Shown here: piece after piece, positions 8,510 to 45,605 of the stretch
How positions within the stretch are numbered: position 1 is the first letter of the stretch
Layout: each line of letters begins with the position of its first letter
Source: an uncultured Candidatus Saccharibacteria bacterium
Lineage (GTDB): Bacteria > Patescibacteriota > Saccharimonadia > Saccharimonadales > Saccharimonadaceae
Direction: 5' to 3'
Length of the DNA stretch: 49,813 nucleotides
Assembly: GCA_947302355.1 (NCBI GenBank)
Contig: CAMYUU010000005.1
Location: 1-49,813, forward strand
Position numbers and translations under genes: made by a program
The notes under the pieces: generated by a model
Told to the model about the DNA's origin: nothing
Databases searched by the model: none
The model's input: only the letters and a program-made list of their open reading frames with translations

Positions 8510-8570
8510 ACTTCTTAAATTCGCTTGAGATAACTTATTATAAAAAATGTTGATTTTTTTGGTGGTATGC

Positions 8571-8614
8571 TATAATTAGCTTATGCTAAAGTCATACGAT
8601 AAAACTAACTCTTC
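8571..8614 (+). promoter_or_regulatory. Promoter and start region shared with the second FISUMP gene
   Basis: TGC-TATAAT (box 8571-8576), TTAGCTT, then ATGCTAAAGTCATAC. The block from TATAAT through the first five codons is identical to 29020-29046 upstream of the paralogue. The ATG at 8583 is 6 nt past the -10 box. Confidence 0.8.
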
Positions 8615-10636
8615 ATATATATATATATATCAGCAATCTTAATTAGCTTTGTTTTTCTTTCTGGAGCCATGCTTGGCTCTAATACTGTATCCGCAGACGA
8701 TTCTGTAGTAGACGAAGTAACTGTCAATGTGCCAGTTTCTTGCACTATGACTGGTACTGGCATGAATAGCCATACCGCCGAGATTAATAATGGTACCTAT
8801 CAAGCTAATATTGGTACCACTACACTTAAAGCCTATTGTAATGATAGTAATGGTTTTTCTATATATGCTATAGGCTTTACTGGAGATCAATATACGGGAG
8901 AAGATCATACTAAACTAATAGGAGCTAATACTAATCAAAAGATAGCTACAGGAACAGCTACATCTGCAGGAAATCCAGACATATCTAACTGGGCGATGAA
9001 ACTAACAGCAGTATCTAGTCCAACTCCTACATATCCTATTACACTAGACAATGGTTATGGTAGTTATAGTGCAGTACCAAGTACATATGCTAAAGTAGCG
9101 CATAGAGACTCTGGTACTGATGTAGGAACTAATGCAGAAGGCTCTACTCTTACTACCACATATGCAGCCTATATATCTAGAACCCAAGTAGCTGATACTT
9201 ATGAAGGTAAAGTTAAATATACACTAGTTCATCCAGTAAATGAAACACCAGTCCAGCAGCAAGTTACGCCGTCTGGTTATATCGGTTATTATCCAAATAC
9301 TTCTATGGCGGTAGGGTCCATGAGCGATGTGAATGGTGGTCCAGTGCAAGAGTTGAGCTTGGCTAGAGATTGGAGTGGATGTTATTATACCGATTATAAA
9401 ACTTACTGTAACGACGAGAATTGGAATGAGATAGATGAAAGTACATTGCCTGATTTGGGCTATTATACCGATACTACTTTGCTCGCTTCTAATTATAGTC
9501 GTGCTGGTTATGGCTTTGCGGGTTGGACCGATGCCTATGATTACGAGACAAATCCTAACGCACATTTTTATGGGCCAAACGAGGATATCTCTTTTACTGT
9601 TGGGCAGTATATTTCGCCGAATGATGGCCTAAGTTTGTATGCTGTTTGGATTCCATCTGCTGGATCGCTTCAAGATTCTGCTAAAGTTTCTGAACTTTGC
9701 GGTACTGGTCAGGGAAGTCTTGTACGAGCATCAGCATCTGGTGCCGTGACGCTGGAAAGCGTCTCTGCATTGACGGATCAACGAGATAATCAGACTTATG
9801 CTATCGCTAAGCTTGCGGATGGTAATTGTTGGATGATTGAAAACTTAAGATTAGATAGCGAATCTACGCTAGGTAATAATTATGAGTCGTTGGCTCAAGG
9901 CTATGGTAAATATTCTGGTTCTGGTACTGACTATGGTAATTTTGTAGGTTTAGCTGATTCTGAGGATGATCATTTCTTTAACTCTACTGTGGCGAATAAT
10001 TTGTACAGTACTAACGGCAGCTATGATACTATACAAATAGGAAATAGTGATTATCCATCGCGACGCATGCCGAGATATAATCATATTAACACATATTCTG
10101 ATCCAGATGATGGAACTAGGGCTACGAGTCTTGTTGCTAGTACGTCTTATCTTACTGTGGCAGGTGCCAATATTTATTCCTATGGCAATTACTATACTTG
10201 GCCTGCCGCCATCGCAAACACGAATTCGTATGGGCCTGAGATTGTTGATATAGAGGGGCGTACTCCTTCTGAGGCGGCGAATACTTCATTGTGTCCAACT
10301 GGCTGGAGGTTGCCATATGGGAGAAATGTTGGAAAGGGCATCGCTTCTGGTGGTTTTTATAATTTAGGGACAGAGCTTAATGCCGTAACTAATGATGCGG
10401 CTAGTTCTAGAATTTGGCGTAAGTTTCCGACTAACTTTCTCTATTCTGGTAACTATTATTATAATAGCGTTAATGACAGAGGTCGCGATGGGCGCTATTG
10501 GTCTTCTACTGCCGTCGATAATAGTTACAATTCTTCATATGATTTTACTATGGTGGAGGATTCTTATTTACGGCCTGGGGATGTTGGGGATTATAAATAT
10601 ATGGGGATTCCAGTTAGATGCGTAGTTGCTCCTTAG
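8583..10636 (+). CDS. Secreted FISUMP-domain surface protein 1, phase-variable start (out of frame as sequenced)
   Basis: The mature frame runs to 10636. It encodes a signal-peptide core (AILISFVFLSGAML, cleavage near VSADD), a conserved N-terminal domain of about 200 residues with paired cysteines, an InlB/Listeria-Bacteroides-type repeat (YGFAGWTDAYDYET to LYAVW), and a C-terminal Fibrobacter-type FISUMP domain (YAIAKLADGNCWMIENL, SLCPTGWRLP, YWSST, PVRCV). No in-frame ATG precedes the signal core. The ATG at 8583 reads KSYDKTNSSYIYIY and then stops at 8640. Removing one AT unit from the (AT)8 tract, or adding two, joins it to the signal peptide, giving a product of about 683 residues. An internal ATG at 8669 would lose the signal peptide. 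Codon choice is A/C-rich in the first 550 nt and changes afterwards. Confidence 0.82.
8615..8630 (+). repeat. (AT)8 simple sequence repeat in the signal-peptide region
   Basis: Sixteen nucleotides of alternating AT lie between codon 11 and the hydrophobic signal core. With 8 units the upstream ATG is out of frame with the surface protein; with 7 or 10 units it would be in frame. Confidence 0.9.
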
Positions 10637-15040: not shown

Positions 15041-15050
15041 TTTCTGATTT

Positions 15051-15238
15051 TCTGAAACACAAAAAATGGTGCAGAACGCAAGAGACTCTAACTCTCGCAC
15101 CGAAGGTCCGAGAGTTAACTGGTCTGAAGATTTTTCTGAAACACAAAAAATGGTGTAGAACGCAAGAGACTCTAACTCTCGCACCGAAGGTCCGAGAGTT
15201 AACTGGTCTGAAGATTTTTCTGAAACACAAAAAATGGT
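15051..15238 (-). repeat. 84-bp tandem repeats containing tRNA-Gly T-arm sequence
   Basis: Two full 84-bp units (15051-15134 and 15135-15218), differing by one base in the part compared, plus the first 20 nt of a third that runs into the tRNA-Gly 3' end. Each unit carries 18 nt (AAGAGACTCTAACTCTCG on the plus strand) identical to the T-arm of the adjacent tRNA-Gly, and TGGTG, the complement of a CACCA end. Between these is a hairpin with 8-bp arms, AACTCTCG/CGAGAGTT. The units lie downstream of the tRNA in the direction of transcription. Confidence 0.85.
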
Positions 15239-15311
15239 GCGAATGAAGAGACTCTAACTCTCGACCTCTTCCTTGGCAAGGAAGCGCTCTAAACAACTGA
15301 GCTACATTCGC
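15235..15311 (-). tRNA. tRNA-Gly (anticodon GCC), CCA encoded
   Basis: On the minus strand, acceptor GCGAATG pairs with CATTCGC, followed by A and CCA. The anticodon stem-loop CTTCC-TTGCCAA-GGAAG gives GCC. The T-loop is TTAGAGT, with A instead of the near-universal C56, which would disturb the usual G19-C56 contact. The rest of the cloverleaf is sound. A minus-strand TATAAT lies near 15325. Confidence 0.93.
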
Positions 15312-25872: not shown

Positions 25873-27975
25873 ATGAAATCGTTACTTGATGGCTTAAATG
25901 AGAGACAGCGGGAAGCGGTAGAGACACTTTCTGGGCCGATTTTGGTGCTGGCTGGAGCGGGAAGTGGCAAGACTAAAACTTTGACGCACCGCATCGCTAA
26001 TTTGATTGCGCACGGCGTAAAACCGTCGCATATTCTCGCTGTAACGTTTACGAATAAGGCGGCAAATGAAATGCGGGAGAGATTATGGAATCTTTTGCAA
26101 GATGTTTCGGGACACGGGTCGCCCGGGCCCGTCGTTACGGGCCTCGCGCCCTCGTTCTCGGTCGTAACCTCCGAATGGTCCCGAGAACACCTTGCAAAAG
26201 ATTCAACTCCGCCACGCAGTTTTATGCCTTATATGGGGACGTTTCACGGAATTGCGGTGCGAGTATTGCGCGAGGAATCTGAGGCGGCGGGATTAGACCG
26301 AAATTTTACGATTTATGATGCGGATGATCAGATTTCTTTGATTCGGCGTGTGATAAAAGATCTGAAACTAAATGATAATAAGAATTTGAAGCCAAAGTCC
26401 GTGCATTCGATTATATCGAGTGAAAAGAATCAAGGTAATGGACCGGAAGAATATGCTGCGAAAGCTTTTTATCCGAACCAAAAACAAATTGCGAAGATTT
26501 TTGAAAAATATGAAATTGAGAAAGCAAAAGCGCAGGCCCTAGATTTTGATGACTTACTAATTAAAGAATACGAATTGTTAAAGATCCATCCAGAAGTTCG
26601 TAAAAAATGGCAGAAGCGCTTTGAATATATTTTAATTGATGAGTATCAGGATACGAATTCTGTACAATATAACATAGTAAAGCTATTAGTTAATGAGAAT
26701 AAAAATATTTGTGTAGTGGGGGATGATTGGCAGTCTATATATTCTTGGCGTGGTGCAGATTTTACGAATATTTTGAATTTCGAAAAGGATTTTCCAGGCG
26801 CTAAGGTAATTAAACTGGAGCAAAATTATCGTTCGTCGGGTAATATTTTAGAGGCATCGCAAAAGGTAATTAATAAGAATAAAGTGAGGACAGAAAAGAC
26901 TTTATTTACAGAAGCCGAAAAGGGTGAACCGATTGATATTGAATCGTTAAGGGATGAGGATGATGAAGCGAATTTTGTAGCGAGGCAAATTATGCTTCTC
27001 AAGCGTGATTATGAGGATTTTTCGGATTTTGCGGTGCTCTATCGGACGAATGCGCAGTCTTATAGTTTTGAAAAAGCATTTATGAATTATCAGATTCCTT
27101 ATAAGATTGTGGGTGGTGTAAGATTTTATGATCGTAAGGAAGTTAAGGATGTGCTGGCGATTTTGAAATTGGTAGTGAATCAGCGTGACCAAGTGAGCTT
27201 AAGTAGGGTAGTGCAAAATGTGCTAAGTGGAGTGGGGGAAGCATCGCTTAGGAAAATTCTAAATGCGATGAATTCGATTGAAGGAAGTAGTCCGCTAGTC
27301 GGCTCAGATATTGAAGATGTCTTGCCGGCAGGTAAGGCGAGAAATGGATTCATGAGACTAATAAATTATCTAAAGAAGGTAGATTTGGCTTTGAATCCTG
27401 GCGAGATTGTACAAAAAACTGTAGAATATTTTGATTTTAAAACTTTGACTGATGATGGTACACCTAGCGCTGATGAGCGGATGCGTAACCTTGAAGTACT
27501 TGCTGGAAATGCCGAAAATTATAATAGTCTGGAAGAGTTTTTGGTGGATTCAGCATTGATGTCTTCGGCAGACGAAAGTGCTGGCAAGAATTCAGTAACT
27601 TTAATGACGATGCATGCGGCGAAGGGATTGGAATTTCCAGTAGTATTTCTAGTAGGGATGGAAGATGGATTATTTCCGAGTAGCAGGGCGGAAGATGAAC
27701 CATCACTTGAAGAGGAAAGGCGGCTAGCTTATGTAGGAATGACTCGGGCGATGCGGAGATTGTTTTTAACTTATGCGGCGTCTAGATATACGTTTGGGAA
27801 CCGAAATTATAACATGCCGTCGAGATTTTTGATTGAACTGGGCTATAATCCGTATGGCTCAAGCGGGTATCATGATAATGATGCTGATGGGTTTACGGAT
27901 TTCGATAAAGATGATTTTGATGATGATTTTGGTGACTACGATCCGTTTCCAGAAGATTTGCCAGTTTATGAATGA
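25873..27975 (+). CDS. uvrD: UvrD/PcrA-type superfamily 1 DNA helicase with palindromic insert
   Basis: A 700-residue 3'-5' DNA helicase for repair and replication restart. Helicase motifs are present in order: LAGAGSGKTKTLTHR (Walker A), VTFTNKAANEMRERL, GTFHGIAVRVLR, ILIDEYQDTN, VVGDDWQSIYSWRGAD, LEQNYRSSGNIL, MTMHAAKGLEFPVVF and AYVGMTRAMRRL. Residues 72-111, between RLW and the GTFHG motif, are an extra GC-rich insert absent from typical PcrA. The tail is highly acidic (Asp-rich), in place of the usual C-terminal Tudor-like domain. TATACT (25861-25866) ends 6 nt before the ATG. Confidence 0.94.
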   Translation: MKSLLDGLNERQREAVETLSGPILVLAGAGSGKTKTLTHRIANLIAHGVKPSHILAVTFTNKAANEMRERLWNLLQDVSGHGSPGPVVTGLAPSFSVVTSEWSREHLAKDSTPPRSFMPYMGTFHGIAVRVLREESEAAGLDRNFTIYDADDQISLIRRVIKDLKLNDNKNLKPKSVHSIISSEKNQGNGPEEYAAKAFYPNQKQIAKIFEKYEIEKAKAQALDFDDLLIKEYELLKIHPEVRKKWQKRFEYILIDEYQDTNSVQYNIVKLLVNENKNICVVGDDWQSIYSWRGADFTNILNFEKDFPGAKVIKLEQNYRSSGNILEASQKVINKNKVRTEKTLFTEAEKGEPIDIESLRDEDDEANFVARQIMLLKRDYEDFSDFAVLYRTNAQSYSFEKAFMNYQIPYKIVGGVRFYDRKEVKDVLAILKLVVNQRDQVSLSRVVQNVLSGVGEASLRKILNAMNSIEGSSPLVGSDIEDVLPAGKARNGFMRLINYLKKVDLALNPGEIVQKTVEYFDFKTLTDDGTPSADERMRNLEVLAGNAENYNSLEEFLVDSALMSSADESAGKNSVTLMTMHAAKGLEFPVVFLVGMEDGLFPSSRAEDEPSLEEERRLAYVGMTRAMRRLFLTYAASRYTFGNRNYNMPSRFLIELGYNPYGSSGYHDNDADGFTDFDKDDFDDDFGDYDPFPEDLPVYE
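26088..26204 (+). repeat. In-frame GC-rich palindromic insert in uvrD
   Basis: The left arm (26088-26113, GAATCTTTTGCAAG...) and right arm (26178-26204) are an imperfect 26-nt inverted repeat. The core at 26118-26160 matches the methyltransferase insert core at 34152-34194 at 34 of 43 positions without gaps, and in the same codon phase (PVVTGLAPSFS versus PVATGLARSSS). The core is far richer in G+C than the gene. Confidence 0.85.
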
Positions 27976-28449: not shown

Positions 28450-29028
28450 ATGGAGTATTTGGGTAAAAATAGAATTTTAATCATTATAACCGGTGAATTG
28501 GCGGCGGGTAAGACTACTTATGGCACAAAAATAGCAAAGGCGCTTGGAATGCCATTTTTAAGTAAAGACAGAATTAAGGAAATTTTATATGATTCTTTGG
28601 GTGAAGTACTGGATTATGAGGCTAAGCGAAAAATGGGCGCTAGTAGTTACGCTGTGTTTTATTATGTTATCGAGGAGCAGATGAGAGCTGGTTTACCTAT
28701 GGTGGTAGAGAGCAATTTTGTGAAGGAATCTGTGCCGATTTTGAAGAATTTGCTTGATAAATATGGTTATAAGCGCGTCACGGTTAGATTTGAAAGCGAC
28801 TTAAAGGTATTACATGAAAGATTTTTGAAGCGGGAATATTCTAGCGAGAGGCATGAAGGTTTAGTCTCGAATGGGACTTTTGATGATTTTGAATATTTTA
28901 AAAAGGTGGCGATAGAATCAAGAGAGTTTAAAATAAATGATGATGAAATTTTGGTAGATACGACGGATTTTGCTAAGGTTGATTTTGCTGGAATTATTAA
29001 AAAAATACAAAGCTTGTGTTATAATTAG
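28450..29028 (+). CDS. P-loop kinase-like ATPase
   Basis: A 192-residue protein with a Walker A motif at 16-23 (GELAAGKTT), a LSKDRIKEILYDSLG segment typical of zeta-toxin/CPT-like and small-molecule kinases, VVESNFVKE as the second strand, and a lid-like LHERFLKREYSSERHEG. It probably phosphorylates a small molecule; the substrate cannot be named. A zeta-toxin identity is unlikely because no antitoxin gene is adjacent. It begins 18 nt after rnhA without a clear ribosome site. Its end carries the promoter of the second surface protein. Confidence 0.72.
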   Translation: MEYLGKNRILIIITGELAAGKTTYGTKIAKALGMPFLSKDRIKEILYDSLGEVLDYEAKRKMGASSYAVFYYVIEEQMRAGLPMVVESNFVKESVPILKNLLDKYGYKRVTVRFESDLKVLHERFLKREYSSERHEGLVSNGTFDDFEYFKKVAIESREFKINDDEILVDTTDFAKVDFAGIIKKIQSLCYN

Positions 29029-29063
29029 CTTATGCTAAAGTCATACAGTAAAACTAACTTTTC
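29020..29063 (+). promoter_or_regulatory. Promoter and start region shared with the first FISUMP gene
   Basis: TATAAT (29020-29025), TTAGCTT, ATGCTAAAGTCATAC, identical to the block at 8571-8597. The -10 box lies inside the last codons of the upstream kinase gene and ends 6 nt before the ATG at 29032. Confidence 0.8.
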
Positions 29064-30977
29064 ATATATATATATATATATATATTAATCAGCCTTGTTT
29101 GTCTTTCTGGAGTTATACTTAGCTCTAGTATTGCTTCTGCTGACGACTCCATAGTAGACCAAGTGACCATCAATGTGCCAGAATCTTGTACCATGACCGG
29201 CACTGGCATGAATTCTCATACTGCAGAAATTACTAATGGTACATATACTGCAAATATAGGTACTACTACACTAAAAGCTTATTGTAATGATAGTAATGGC
29301 TTTTCTATATATACTATAGGATACACTAATGATACATATGGTACTACTACACTAATAGGACAAAGTACTAGTAATACTATAGTTACAGGAACAGCTACAT
29401 CTGCAGGTAATCCTGACACATCTAACTGGGCTATGAAACTAACAGCAGTATCATCTCCAACACCTACATATCCTATTACACTAGACAATGGTTATGGAAG
29501 CTATAGTATAGTACCATCTACTTATACTAAAGTAGCACATAGAGATTCTGGTACTGATATAGGAACCAATGCAGAAGGCTCAACTCTTACTACTACATAT
29601 GCAGCTTATATATCCAGAACCCAACCTGCTGATACATATGAAGGTAAAGTTAAATACACACTTGTACATCCAGCAGACGCTGATGCGCCAGACCCTGCAA
29701 AACAGGCACGGGTTACCGAGTCTGGTAAAATCTGTTATTATGCGAATGCCTCCAATGCATTGGGTACTATGGGCTGTCAGACTATACCCAGCTCTGGTAC
29801 TAATGACGGCGTAACAGCAACTTCTGCCACACTACTCGCATCTAACTTTAGCAGAGAAGGCTATGGCTTTGCTGGTTGGAGTGACGTTTTTGATTATGAA
29901 ACTAACCAAAATGCTCACTTCTATGGTCCACAGGAAGATATTACTTATACTGCTGGACAATACTCCAGCCCCAATAACGGCCTAAGTCTATATGCCGTAT
30001 GGATCAAATCACAAGGTAGTCTACAAGATTCTACTAAAGTAGCACAGCTTTGTGGTACTGGTACAGGAAGCCTAACTACTGCTCCTACTGATGGTACTGC
30101 AAATCTATCTAGCGTATCCGCTCTTACTGATAGCAGAGACAACAATACATATGCTATTGCTAAACTAGCTGATGGTAAATGTTGGATGATAGAAAACTTA
30201 AGATTAGAAGCAGAAGATACTACTAGTGAAGAAGACATCGCTCTAGCTCAAGGATATAACTCTAGTTTTATTGGTCTAGCTACGGCAGAATCTAGCAACT
30301 TCTCAGATACTACTGCGGCTAATAGCTTATATAGTACAAATGGCTCTACTGTTAAAACTATTGACAGTACAGGGGGTAATCGAAGCTATAGATTTCCGCG
30401 TTATAATAATCTAAATACTCCAGCTAATGCTAGTAATAGACCGCAAAATCCTACCAGTAATTCATTCGCAGAAGACAATACTACGGCAGGTATGTATAGC
30501 TATGGTAACTACTATACTTGGGCAGCAGCTATCGCGGATACTACTCATTATCCTAGCGGAGATCATGACACTACATCCATTTGTCCAACTGGCTGGCAAC
30601 TGCCACTAGGTAATACTAGCACAGGAGATATAGCACAGGCTGAAGCAGATGCAGCAAACAAAGTTGGTGGGTTCTCTTATCTAGATCGTAAAATGGGTGG
30701 TACGGGAACTGGATCTGATACCGCTGCTGGTTCACTACGTTGGCGTAAATATCCAGTCAATTTCGTCTATGCTGGCGATGTTGACGGCAGTTCGGTGGCT
30801 CTTCGCGGTTCGACCGGCATTTATTGGTCTTCTGCGGCCGGCTCATATAGCAGTATCTACCCGTACGGTGGCGTTTACGTCTTGCATTTGACTAATAGGT
30901 TCGTTTACCCAGGTTCACATATCTTAAACTTCAAGTATGCCGGAAGGACTATTCGTTGTGTCGCTTCCGGCTTATAA
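29032..30977 (+). CDS. Secreted FISUMP-domain surface protein 2, phase-variable start (out of frame as sequenced)
   Basis: Paralogue of the protein at 8583. The mature frame encodes a signal core ILISLVCLSGVILSSS with cleavage near IASADD, an N-terminal domain nearly identical to that of paralogue 1 over about 170 residues, an InlB-type repeat (YGFAGWSDVFDYET to LYAVW), and a FISUMP domain (YAIAKLADGKCWMIENL, SICPTGWQLP, IYWSS, TIRCV). The ATG at 29032 reads KSYSKTNFSYIYIYIY and stops at 29086. Losing one AT unit from (AT)11, or gaining two, would open a frame of about 647 codons. There is no other ATG in frame before the signal core; a GTG at 29163 would remove it. The final 230 nt switch from A/C-rich to C/G-ending codons. 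Confidence 0.82.
29064..29085 (+). repeat. (AT)11 simple sequence repeat in the signal-peptide region
   Basis: Twenty-two nucleotides of alternating AT, at the same position as the (AT)8 tract of the first paralogue. The difference of three units is 6 nt, so both loci are in the same, out-of-frame, phase. Confidence 0.9.
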
Positions 30978-33420: not shown

Positions 33421-34605
33421 GTGAAATATCTTGCAATTCTAGGAAGACAACCAGAAATATCTATAGCTGAGCTTGAGGCGCTTTATGTTGATGTATTACG
33501 TCAGGCGCCTGGCTTGGCTAGTTTTGTGGCGGATTCTGTAGATATTGATAAACTTGGTGGAAGTCTCAAAATTGCTAAAGCATTGGATAGAAAGCCGTTA
33601 GAATACTTACAGAGTTTGCCAGAGGGGAAAATCACGATTGGTGTAAGTGATTATTCCGAAAAGGCATCGCGAAAAACTACACTTGATGAAGCGTTGAAAC
33701 TTAAAAAGATTTTGGTACGACATGGGCGTAGCGTAAGAGTAGTAGAAAGTAAAGATGCGGTATTATCTACTGCGACATCTTTACATAATGGGCTAAGCGG
33801 GAAAAACGATCGGAAGGTTGAATTAATTAAAGTCGGAAATAGCTGGTATAAGGTAATTGGTATTCAGGATATTGATGCGTATGCTAGAAGGGATCAGGCG
33901 CGACCTGCTCGAGATGCAAAGGTAGGGATGTTGCCGCCGAAGTTGGCACAGATCCTGATTAATCTTTGCGGGCCCTTGAAGGTTGGCGCAACGATTTTGG
34001 ATCCGTTCTGTGGTACGGGAGTATTATTGCAGGAAGCATTATTGATGAGATATCGAGCATATGGCACTGATATTAGTGAGCGAATGGTGGAATATAGTGA
34101 AAAGAACTTGAAATGGCTTATGAAATCCAAAAGTATTCATTCTCGGGCCGCGTCGCTCGCTCCCGTCGCCACGGGGCTCGCGCGCTCGTCTTCGCCTTGC
34201 CAGGCTCCGGATTCCCTTGAATCGAATACTTTCTGGATTTCACGAGGCGATGCAACTTCTTTTCAGTGGGTTCAGCCGATTGACGCAGTGGCTTGTGAGG
34301 GGTATCTCGGTAAGCCTTTTAGCCAGATTCCAAGCGATATGGAGTTAAAAAAGCAAAAACAGGAGTGTGGAGCGATAATTCTTGGATTTTTGAAGAATTT
34401 GGCTTCACAGATTAAAGAAGGTATACCTGTAGTAATTGCCGCCCCGGCGTGGCTGAGGCAGGATGGGGCTTATGAAAGATTAGAAATTCTTGACGAAATA
34501 GATAAACTGGGGTATAATGTTAATAATAAATCGCGTAAGGGGCTTTTTTATCATCGTGAAAAGCAGGTTGTCGCGAGAGATATATTAATTTTAAGGAAGA
34601 AGTAA
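33421..34605 (+). CDS. TRM11-like SAM-dependent RNA methyltransferase with palindromic insert
   Basis: A 394-residue protein. The N-terminal 160 residues (MKYLAILGRQPEISIAELEA) resemble a THUMP-associated domain. The catalytic part starts at PPKLAQILINL, with the SAM motif ILDPFCGTGVLLQEAL and YGTDIS for the ribose-binding acid. The motif IV position reads ACEGYLGKPFS, without the common DPPY, so the catalytic call is uncertain. Residues 234-274 are an extra GC-rich insert. The start is GTG at 33421, with TATAAT (33409-33414) 6 nt upstream. rpmA starts immediately after its stop, so both are likely co-transcribed. Probable role: guanosine methylation in tRNA (family knowledge). Confidence 0.75.
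   Translation: MKYLAILGRQPEISIAELEALYVDVLRQAPGLASFVADSVDIDKLGGSLKIAKALDRKPLEYLQSLPEGKITIGVSDYSEKASRKTTLDEALKLKKILVRHGRSVRVVESKDAVLSTATSLHNGLSGKNDRKVELIKVGNSWYKVIGIQDIDAYARRDQARPARDAKVGMLPPKLAQILINLCGPLKVGATILDPFCGTGVLLQEALLMRYRAYGTDISERMVEYSEKNLKWLMKSKSIHSRAASLAPVATGLARSSSPCQAPDSLESNTFWISRGDATSFQWVQPIDAVACEGYLGKPFSQIPSDMELKKQKQECGAIILGFLKNLASQIKEGIPVVIAAPAWLRQDGAYERLEILDEIDKLGYNVNNKSRKGLFYHREKQVVARDILILRKK
34121..34242 (+). repeat. In-frame GC-rich palindromic insert in the methyltransferase gene
   Basis: The left arm (34121-34143, TGAAATCCAAAAGTATTC...) and right arm (34219-34242) are an imperfect inverted repeat whose sequence differs from the uvrD arms. The core at 34152-34194 is the one shared with uvrD. 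It separates ENLKWLMKS from FWISRGDATSFQW, which would be adjacent in a normal Rossmann methyltransferase. Confidence 0.85.
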
Positions 34606-43252: not shown

Positions 43253-43328
43253 GGCGCTGTAGCTCAGTTGGTAGAGCAGAGGCCTGAAGAGCCTTGTGTC
43301 ACTGGTTCAAGTCCAGTCGGCGCCACCA
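43253..43328 (+). tRNA. tRNA-Phe (anticodon GAA), CCA encoded
   Basis: Acceptor GGCGCTG pairs with CGGCGCC, then A and CCA. The D-arm AGCTCAGTTGGTAGAGCA is standard, the anticodon loop CTGAAGA gives GAA, and the T-arm is GGTTCAAGTCC. TATAAT sits at about 43236-43241, divergent from hisS. Confidence 0.97.
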
Positions 43329-43340
43329 GAACGTATTTAA

Positions 43341-43363
43341 ATCGGCAAAATAGCCGATTTTTT
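43341..43363 (+). terminator. Intrinsic terminator of tRNA-Phe
   Basis: ATCGGC-AAAATA-GCCGAT followed by TTTTTAG, 13 nt past the tRNA. The right arm is the beginning of the 137-bp direct repeat. Confidence 0.85.
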
Positions 43364-43489
43364 AGTAGTAATTTTCTGTTAAGTACCTTGTAACAATAGT
43401 ATGCATTTTTGGACCATTTTTTGCATCAAAAAACTGCCAAAAATGCGATTTTTACCCCTGTTAAAATGTCTGTTAATACCCTAAACAAT
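43353..43489. repeat. 137-bp direct repeat, copy 1
   Basis: Nearly identical to 44585-44720 (one T/C difference and one single-base length difference in a T-run). It begins in the right arm of a terminator and runs to CCCTAAACAAT. It contains the internal inverted pair ATGCATTTTTGGAC / GCCAAAAATGC. Each copy lies downstream of one of two paralogous minus-strand genes. Confidence 0.93.
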
Positions 43490-43571
43490 CAGGTCTTAAT
43501 TTTTATAGTCGTTCGTATACCTTTTGACTACCTAGCCATCAAAATTGTTTTCTATCAGACTATATTTGTTT

Positions 43572-44456
43572 TTAATTCATTTTTTCAACACTTGTAAGTA
43601 CATAGCTACCATTGTACGGCGACAGCGTAAACTCATAAATTGACATACTGTCCACCATTTCGTTTAAAGTGCCCTCCGTCACTCCTAGTCCACCACTTAG
43701 TGATGTGGGTCCACAAATCCCCGCAGCAACCTCTACATCGGTATTTAGCTCTGCAAAAATTAAAGATACAACTATTTTTTCACCAGCTTTCTTTACCGAT
43801 GCAACCTTATGAGTCGCAACAACTGGGGAATATCCACCACCGGGCAATATGAATTCTCTGTATGCATTAATGCTGTCATCATAGACTAGATAGAAGAAAT
43901 TCTGAAAAGCATAGTTTTTCTTCTCAATGGAGCTGTAATCACCAAATAGCGACTGATATTTTTCGCTCATCAAATCGTAACTTATACTCTTACCGGTACA
44001 ATCGCCTTTCTCATACCTTTCTTCTACGCAACTGACGGTTTCTTTTTCGTTGTCACTTATTGAACTATAAGTTAGAAAAGTTTCCTGTTGACTATTGAAA
44101 TCTGAAGTAAAGGTATTGTAAGAAGCATTTAAACCGTAAGCCATTGTGCTGTTACCTTCACCTATATATTTTGCTAGTATTTTCTCTACCTCAGTAACCG
44201 ATATAGCATTTCCGTCAACATTTGTATCAGTGTTATCATCTTGATCAACAATATTTTGCGTTGGATTCCCTTCTTTTAATCTAGCAATTTCGGTATCTTT
44301 TTGCGAACTCTGCATCATACCATAAACGCCAAACCCAATTCCGCAAACCGCCACAATGCATGCAATGGCAGTAGCAATCTTCAGACCATTTCCATTTTTT
44401 TTCTTATCATCTACTACTGGCGTCATTTGCACTCCAGTTTCAGCGTTTTGTTCCAT
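43572..44456 (-). CDS. Modular membrane-anchored protein, paralogue A
   Basis: A 294-residue protein of unknown function. The cytosolic start MEQNAETGVQMTPVVDDKKK precedes a single helix (IATAIACIVAVCGIGFGVYGM), a short linker (QSSQKDTEIARLKEGN), and an external domain of about 220 residues with an internal Cys pair (SCVEERYEKGDC). The first 60 residues closely match paralogue B at 44770; the external domains do not. A leader of about 40 nt with AAAGGAA precedes the ATG, and its minus-strand -10 is TACAAT near 44494. It is a good candidate for a variable surface domain on a fixed anchor. Confidence 0.78.
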   Translation of the reverse strand: MEQNAETGVQMTPVVDDKKKNGNGLKIATAIACIVAVCGIGFGVYGMMQSSQKDTEIARLKEGNPTQNIVDQDDNTDTNVDGNAISVTEVEKILAKYIGEGNSTMAYGLNASYNTFTSDFNSQQETFLTYSSISDNEKETVSCVEERYEKGDCTGKSISYDLMSEKYQSLFGDYSSIEKKNYAFQNFFYLVYDDSINAYREFILPGGGYSPVVATHKVASVKKAGEKIVVSLIFAELNTDVEVAAGICGPTSLSGGLGVTEGTLNEMVDSMSIYEFTLSPYNGSYVLTSVEKMN

Positions 44457-44500
44457 TAAATTCCTTTCTATAATACTTATGCTTCTATTGTAGCATGATT
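44457..44500 (-). promoter_or_regulatory. Promoter/leader of paralogue A, shared with paralogue B
   Basis: Minus strand: TGC-TACAAT, then AGAAGCATAAGTATTATAGAAAGGAATTTA and ATG (given in parts: AGAAGCATAAG, TATTATAGAAAGG). The leader of paralogue B (45565-45605) shares ATAAGTATTATAGAAAGG. Confidence 0.75.
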
Positions 44501-44584
44501 CAGTTTTTCTAGGATATCATCTTTGTAGATTGTTAATGCCTGCCCAATTCGCCCCCACCAAACTTTATATAACTCGGCATTTTG

Positions 44585-44720
44585 GCCGATTTTTTAGTAG
44601 TAATTCTCTGTTAAGTACCTTGTAACAATAGTATGCATTTTTGGACCATTTTTGCATCAAAAAACTGCCAAAAATGCGATTTTTACCCCTGTTAAAATGT
44701 CTGTTAATACCCTAAACAAT
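44585..44720. repeat. 137-bp direct repeat, copy 2
   Basis: Second copy of the repeat at 43353-43489. Its left edge also forms a hairpin, TCGGC-ATTTTG-GCCGA followed by TTTTTTAG, although no plus-strand gene lies just upstream. It fills most of the gap between the two paralogues (44457-44769); the rest of that gap, about 44501-44575, holds no gene I can support. Confidence 0.93.
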
Positions 44721-44769
44721 TTGGTCACACAAAAAGCATTCGTAACTACCCCATGGGTGCTTTAGGAAA

Positions 44770-45564
44770 CTAATTCAACATTGAAGTATCATATTTTACA
44801 TAACTTCCGTCAGCTAGTACAAAAATTGTTGAGCCGTAACCGCCGGCAGGTGCACCTTCTTGACCTACGCCAATAGTGAATGCATCTACGACAAAACCAT
44901 CTATCTTTAGTTTGCCCTTTATATTAAAATCAGATTTTTCCAGAGCGTCGTTCAATGATAGATACTCCACGCTACCATCTTCCATAATGAAAGCTACGCT
45001 GTCGTATAGGGCATCGTGTCCTTCGCCAACTTCAACCACTTTATAAATCTTGCCAGTTATGCCATTTATGCTACAGTTTTTCAAAAAACGAGTATTGCTG
45101 ACGATCCCGCCATCATTCCCGCCAACCCATTTTGAATCAACAGAGTTTACGTTGCATTCGCTTATTTCTCCATTATGAATATTTAAACTAAGTGAAAATT
45201 CACCATTCTCTCCATAGCCTATGGTCCCTGATTTAAAATATATATTATAAATCATCGGCGCAGTAGCAGATATAACCGGATTTTGCTTCTTGACAGTAGA
45301 ATCAGTCTGTGAATCATCAGAAATTTTAATTTCATCAGTTTCCAGAGTAGTAACTTTACCATTAGAATCCTCAATCTGAACTTTTAGGTCAGAAATTTGA
45401 TCGTCTTTTTGTGAACTCTGAATCATACCATAAATACCAAACCCAATACCGCAAACCGCCGCAATACAGGCAATTGCAGTAGCGATTTTTAAACCATTTC
45501 CACTTTTTTGCTTATTCTCTACTACTGGCACCGTTGGCGCTTCAGTATTGATATTTTGTTCCAT
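44770..45564 (-). CDS. Modular membrane-anchored protein, paralogue B
   Basis: A 264-residue relative of the protein at 43572. Shared parts: the MEQN start, PVVENKQKSGNGLKIATAIA, the hydrophobic helix ending CGIGFGIYGMIQSSQKDDQI, and the leader. Different parts: a coiled-coil linker (ISDLKVQIEDSNGKVTTLET) and a beta-rich external domain with two cysteines and Gly-rich turns (GVGQEGAPAGGYGS). The start is placed at the ATG at 45564, not a TTG one codon earlier. AAAGGG lies before it and a minus-strand TATAAT is near 45598. Function unknown. Confidence 0.78.
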   Translation of the reverse strand: MEQNINTEAPTVPVVENKQKSGNGLKIATAIACIAAVCGIGFGIYGMIQSSQKDDQISDLKVQIEDSNGKVTTLETDEIKISDDSQTDSTVKKQNPVISATAPMIYNIYFKSGTIGYGENGEFSLSLNIHNGEISECNVNSVDSKWVGGNDGGIVSNTRFLKNCSINGITGKIYKVVEVGEGHDALYDSVAFIMEDGSVEYLSLNDALEKSDFNIKGKLKIDGFVVDAFTIGVGQEGAPAGGYGSTIFVLADGSYVKYDTSMLN

Positions 45565-45605
45565 CAAAAACCCTTTCTATAATACTTATGTTTCTATTAT
45601 AATAT

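Follow-up and report, generated by a model that had tools for sequence, protein, structure and literature searches.

A palindromic insert in uvrD

What is the GC-rich palindrome that lies within the uvrD-like helicase gene of this Saccharibacteria genome, and how did it come to be there? The gene and its insert occupy the following positions in the window, by which we mean the whole stretch of 49,813 nucleotides that was analysed:

25873..27975, + strand: uvrD/pcrA-like helicase gene, 700 amino acids, open through the insert (Pfam UvrD-helicase, 2.3e-89)
26088..26204, + strand: palindromic element, uvrD copy (97.1 bits against the family covariance model)
26088..26113, + strand: left arm of the uvrD copy, copy-specific, overlapping the native codons WNLLQ
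26114..26178, + strand: conserved GC-rich core, common to copies elsewhere in the genome, delimited by fold and conserved columns
about 26116-26151 and 26153-26175, + strand: two inner hairpins of the core, from the fold
26179..26204, + strand: right arm, inverted repeat of the left arm

The insert, 117 nt long, lies in frame between RLW and the PPRSFMPYMGTFHG motif. An earlier reading, made from the sequence only, had described it as an in-frame palindrome far richer in G+C than its gene, with a 26-nt imperfect inverted repeat at its ends and forty extra residues. The insert is real, its sequence is as described and the 700-residue frame stays open. Its G+C content is 59% (71% in the core), compared with 41% both in uvrD and in the window. 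The arms are 95% complementary over 19 nt (26088-26106 with 26186-26204) and 93% complementary over the full 26 nt that include the imperfect part. Folded as RNA, the insert reaches -65.5 kcal/mol (z = -6.5), a value that none of 200 shuffled sequences attained. Extra residues there are, but not forty: since one arm covers part of the native RLWxLL(Q) stretch, the protein is about 28-33 residues longer, net, than in relatives without the insert.

A family of dispersed copies

Does the element occur elsewhere? The sequence-only reading held that the core is shared with an insert in an unrelated gene, and that copy exists:

33421..34605, + strand: SAM-dependent RNA methyltransferase-like gene that carries the second copy (PF01170, 9.8e-10)
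34122..34241, + strand: second family copy, in frame (78 bits, E about 1e-25; fold z = -5.1)

This second copy has a core of another subtype and private arms, GAAATCC.AAAGTATTC and GAATACTTTCTGGATTTC. It escaped both an exact-pattern search and the repeat scan of the window, and was caught by the covariance model of the family (A1/R1), which was trained on 50 copies from separate sites and whose calibration makes its E-values rough. The genome-wide search that had been proposed as a check, carried out with this model, found 27 copies in the 727 kb source genome (G000) and up to 34 in its relatives; 59 of the 60 genomes of the genus have one or more. Across the class, matches were confined to the genus and two sister genera, with one borderline match elsewhere. 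BLAST with the core gave about a dozen further matches in the source genome, all of them confined to the core, with arms that differ from place to place. An exact 20-nt core motif occurs in at least 117 stretches of the species-genome collection; among the matches listed, all are titled Candidatus Saccharibacteria, and they come from ruminant guts, termite guts and a reactor. The few IMG/VR matches were to an 18-nt core motif, and an 18-mer can match by chance. A search of Rfam with the element returned nothing credible. We collected 229 distinct copies, 177 of them with clear arms; the span of the element is mostly 111-126 nt.

Nearly all the named genomes were assembled from metagenomes, which leaves room for an artefact of assembly or binning. 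But the family turns up, in frame and its arms matched, in tens of independent assemblies whose sources are goats, sheep, buffalo, termites and a reactor, and we regard an artefact as a negligible possibility. Taking the explanation jointly with all its parts, we consider it probable, though by no means certain, that the uvrD insert is one copy of a genus-level, dispersed, non-autonomous family of fold-back DNA elements, each about 110-120 bp long, that inhabits the genomes of gut Saccharibacteria.

The window holds other repeats as well. At 15048-15240 an 84-nt unit is repeated in tandem, with two complete copies and the beginning of another, each containing the inverted repeat TAACTCTCGCACCGAAGGTCCGAGAGTTA. 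Two genes 20 kb apart (8568-9207 and 29017-29644) are 79-94% identical in their upstream region and 5' part; the pair is probably a duplicated surface protein gene. A paralogous gene pair at 43317-44726 and 44273-45601 has a near-identical intergenic region (88-92%).

Arms that are private but matched

Which parts of the element do the copies have in common? Every copy consists of a conserved core between mutually complementary, copy-specific arms of about 25 bp. Over the 50 non-orthologous copies, both partners have changed in 19 of the 23 model pairs, and one-sided changes are very few. Among the seven type-A copies in uvrD, 90.5% of the arm cells pair, as high as in none of 500 shuffles, and no slid register comes near the true register; 14 of the 18 arm pairs are doubly changed, with 28 double-change cells against 2 single.

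No terminal inverted repeat is common to the copies, even where the cores are identical. The isolate RGIG2371 (JAFRCN) carries four copies with one common 75-nt core and four different arm pairs. Copies of one genome whose cores reach 97% identity or more have arms that are 37% identical, compared with a baseline of about 28% for unrelated pairs; the former figure comes from 12 pairs, one of which stands at 82%. A weak consensus can be made out in the arms (purines at -20 to -23, A at -13 to -15, pyrimidines beside the core). Arm similarity climbs as core identity does, also for pairs of sites in which orthology was not recognised, so that some inheritance of the arms is not excluded.

Are the arms taken from somewhere else? 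In the parts of the genome examined, we found no source for them; matches were no better than those of shuffled arms, and the idea that arms are captured from elsewhere in the genome was rejected. A second idea, that they are plain copies of the host flank, was hinted at by the native WxLLQ of uvrD and by E168 in queA. It was not upheld. In protein-level alignments only the outer 1-3 residues of an arm are native on average, and the queA arms are ambiguous in this respect.

Position in genes and reading frame

How does a 117-nt palindrome persist within a gene? Most copies are located within genes. The frame is open across the whole element in 146 of the 177 clear-armed copies. Random insertions would keep the frame by length alone in about one third of cases; the surviving copies are therefore selected. 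Stop codons are not depleted in the core, and we reject on that ground the idea that the core evolved to be stop-free. Nor is the encoded peptide conserved. Relative to the genes both orientations of the core occur (66 versus 131), and it is read in several frames (..PVVTG.., ..EPRNDGRE.., ..SRPSSRGS..).

Insert-free homologues were found for 97 copies, with inserts mostly of about 15-46 amino acids. The insert-bearing genes include uvrD, queA, polA, and gatA-, ileS-, leuS-, alaS-, obg- and tlyA-like genes, among others; beyond uvrD these are presumed identities, assigned in this set from recognisable motifs without domain searches. Among UvrD matches in the genus, 55 of 57 are free of internal stops. 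One uvrD (L053, genome G079) has a TAG stop just past the insert (RSFMP*MGTFHG) and may be a pseudogene or an assembly error.

A second hot spot is queA: of the alleles read, 21 were occupied, a count that is biased by ascertainment because the query itself carried the insert. One queA (L233:5437-6657) seems to hold a second insert further downstream and the neighbouring tgt (L233:6651-7841) another, so this queA-tgt operon may hold three.

The same loops of housekeeping proteins are thus repeatedly occupied or emptied. We infer from these patterns that the insertions would be mostly neutral passengers, the survivors being in-frame insertions into loops that tolerate them.

Recurrence at the uvrD site

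Is the insert an old feature of UvrD? An insert lies between RLWxLL and PPRSFMPYMGTFHG in 19 of 48 UvrD genes: seven are of type A, five of type B forward, three of type B reversed, three have the unrelated core C and one is of another kind. Across these genes the site holds at least three unrelated cores, and cores in opposite orientations. On a maximum-likelihood tree of the 48 proteins, presence and absence require 14 changes, and at least 11 of these changes are forced by well-supported branches. The source genome (type A), for example, groups with G010 and G063, which have no insert, and with G072 (type B reversed), with support of 100/99. Since recurrent loss or recombinational exchange could explain part of this pattern, we speak of inserts gained, lost or exchanged, not of 14 insertions.

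The uvrD insert is not an ancestral feature of UvrD. The alignment of relatives, suggested beforehand as a check, has clean insert/no-insert differences scattered over the tree; the two outcomes that would have refuted the original reading, the segment in all related UvrD sequences with selection on the protein, or no other copies, were not encountered.

Similar arms flank the core in forward orientation in G132 and inverted in G142, G085 and G072; independent insertion is not excluded. At the same site, the uvrD genes of G078, G100 and G146 (L054, L260, L266) carry an insert of another core family (..GGAATATACG..), which likewise has matched arms of its own.

Occupied and empty sites in close relatives

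What do close relatives reveal of the insertion itself? The uvrD loci of G080, G176 and G181 are 97% identical. The tlyA-like gene is empty in G080, while in G176 120 nt replace 15 nt in frame; obg is likewise empty in G080 and occupied in G176, and the 5' leader of a glmM-like gene is occupied in G176 alone. Some sites hold different elements in different genomes. The contrast of empty and occupied gene is cleanest for tlyA and obg; there the native loop is unlike either arm, and since the arms were also not found elsewhere, their source is not shown. The flanks of the tlyA site are more diverged than the genome average, so that import by recombination is possible instead of fresh insertion. 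We identified no consistent target-site duplication in empty/filled pairs, which are heavily diverged around the junction.

Truly orthologous arms in these relatives change no faster than their flanks; frequent template switching is therefore not directly seen. Hypermutability of the arms after insertion was rejected on the same comparison of G080, G176 and G181.

Could the element be an ordinary MITE, whose terminal inverted repeats are inherited and whose transposase is encoded elsewhere, the arms differing only through age and divergence? Bacterial MITEs are defined by common terminal inverted repeats, usually with a target-site duplication. The Saccharibacteria element resembles them (Correia/NEMIS, ERIC, RUP, YPAL) in being small, multi-copy, dispersed and palindromic, with some in-frame fusions; its restriction to the genus, the weak arm consensus and the climb of arm similarity with core identity also fit. 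However, it lacks common terminal repeats, identical-core copies of one genome have nearly unrelated arms, and the arms of true orthologues change no faster than their flanks. No clear target-site duplication was found, and the source genome lacks both a Y1 transposase and a reverse transcriptase, in a screen that did not cover DDE transposases. We consider an ordinary MITE unlikely.

Other palindromes are seen as well. A smaller element of about 70-80 nt, built of AACAACGAAG...GAGAGAACC hairpins and bordered by a GACGG-like repeat, sits inside the loop that the core hairpin of the first element forms (L329:17311-17382 in G176, L339:279-500 in G181, L299-L301). Close relatives also differ in several unrelated families of palindromes whose stems are variable but matched, of the CTCTAGAAGG..., AGGCGGGTCCTG... 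and CATAATTCAT... types (L340 of G181 near reversed 4341; L319:11301-11472; L332 and L318:2349-2511; L312/L356).

Relation to known palindromic elements

To what known system does the element belong? The sequence-only reading had likened it to the protein-coding palindromes of Rickettsia and Wolbachia. The Rickettsia palindromic elements (Ogata et al. 2000, 2002) are long stem-loops of 105-146 bp, both genic and intergenic, in frame in conserved protein genes and presumed selfish (PMC2229807, PMC10969869). The 117-nt stem-loop falls within their range of about 105-150 bp and is likewise inserted in frame in unrelated conserved protein genes. In contrast to the Rickettsia elements, which have common terminal inverted repeats and encode a conserved peptide, its arms are copy-specific, its core is translated in both orientations and several frames, and its host belongs to a CPR phylum. 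The Wolbachia repeats (Ogata et al. 2005, known to us as cited in PMC2229807) are also protein-coding palindromes of a reduced, host-dependent bacterium but of another phylum; sequences were not compared. The resemblance therefore stands for behaviour and fails for membership, in the absence of conserved terminal arms and of a conserved peptide. With nothing credible in Rfam and no description in the open-access literature searched, we take the element to be a new family of the protein-coding palindromic kind. The sequence-only reading knew of no such report from CPR bacteria, and we found none from Saccharibacteria or other CPR bacteria in that literature, outside which most subscription papers lie.

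REP and REPIN sequences are mostly extragenic, are built of 20-40 bp units and need a Y1 enzyme (RAYT). They are palindromic, dispersed and non-autonomous, as is the present element; but the source genome has no Y1 transposase, and the element differs in its length and its genic position.

Quasipalindrome template switching offers a different kind of likeness, being a mutational process and not a mobile element. Its two known products, in coding inverted repeats, are homogenisation of the arms and inversion of the spacer, and it can also lengthen arms (PMC8604942). The concerted double changes in both arms of the uvrD copies fit the first kind. The spacers described are of 2-5 bp (PMC8604942), whereas that of the Saccharibacteria element is of about 65 nt.

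How are the arms made?

What keeps the two arms complementary? One answer is a functional structured RNA in mRNAs, inserted once long ago at each site, with arms held by stepwise compensatory mutation. The strong covariation, the strong folding, and the conservation of loops and junctions beside variable stems speak for it. Against it stand the presence of both core orientations within genes and the scatter of insert classes on the UvrD tree. Transitions at arm mismatches, moreover, have a strand bias (105 to 60) relative to the core and none relative to the gene, although the copies are not all independent; selection on RNA in the mRNA was rejected on this point, the wobble bias following the core strand and not the gene sense. 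Finally, arm changes are almost all double and one-sided G.U intermediates nearly absent, so that template switching in DNA fits better than RNA selection. We judge a structured RNA improbable, more so than a MITE.

Might a reverse transcriptase of the DGR or group II type mobilise the element through RNA, the second arm being formed by snap-back of the cDNA? Such a fold-back copy step would yield complementary arms, and an RVT_1 gene is present in 39 of the 60 genomes of the genus. But none was found in the source genome or in the copy-rich G018, G025 and G026, and some genomes that have one, such as G027 and G035, hold few copies. This route is very improbable. The Y1 transposase was absent from 58 of the 60 genomes, so that neither of the two enzyme types screened yielded a mobilising enzyme.

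We therefore return to the fold-back DNA element. Template switching between the arms, that is, quasipalindrome correction, could keep them complementary and sometimes flip the core; this is inferred from the double changes and from the opposite core orientations. The arms probably turn copy-specific at or soon after insertion. In the proposal, fold-back synthesis would copy one arm from the other, at some sites taking in flanking host sequence, and the arms would be private to each copy for this reason. Fold-back copying at or soon after insertion is, we infer, the most economical origin of private arms. It is supported by uvrD, whose carriers, dispersed over the tree, have the native WxLL(Q) encoded within the left arm. 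The empty sites of tlyA and obg do not support arms copied from the target; uvrD suggests such copying. Only tentatively, as a possibility we would not put at even chances, do we go further and propose that the core alone moves, that the ends are not inherited, and that the long terminal inverted repeats are built for each target by fold-back DNA synthesis. If this is true, each copy gains arms of its own, and the copies escape homologous recombination with one another.

Implications

To our knowledge, protein-coding palindromes have been a curiosity of the Rickettsiales for 25 years, and their way of moving is not known. The Saccharibacteria family provides a second and far richer case in another phylum, with hundreds of copies, recurrent gain or loss at the same protein loops, and occupied and empty sites in close relatives. 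Its private but matched arms are a direct handle on the mechanism. The inserts account for odd insertions of 25-45 residues in essential enzymes of these bacteria, insertions that would lead annotation, phylogeny and structure prediction astray.
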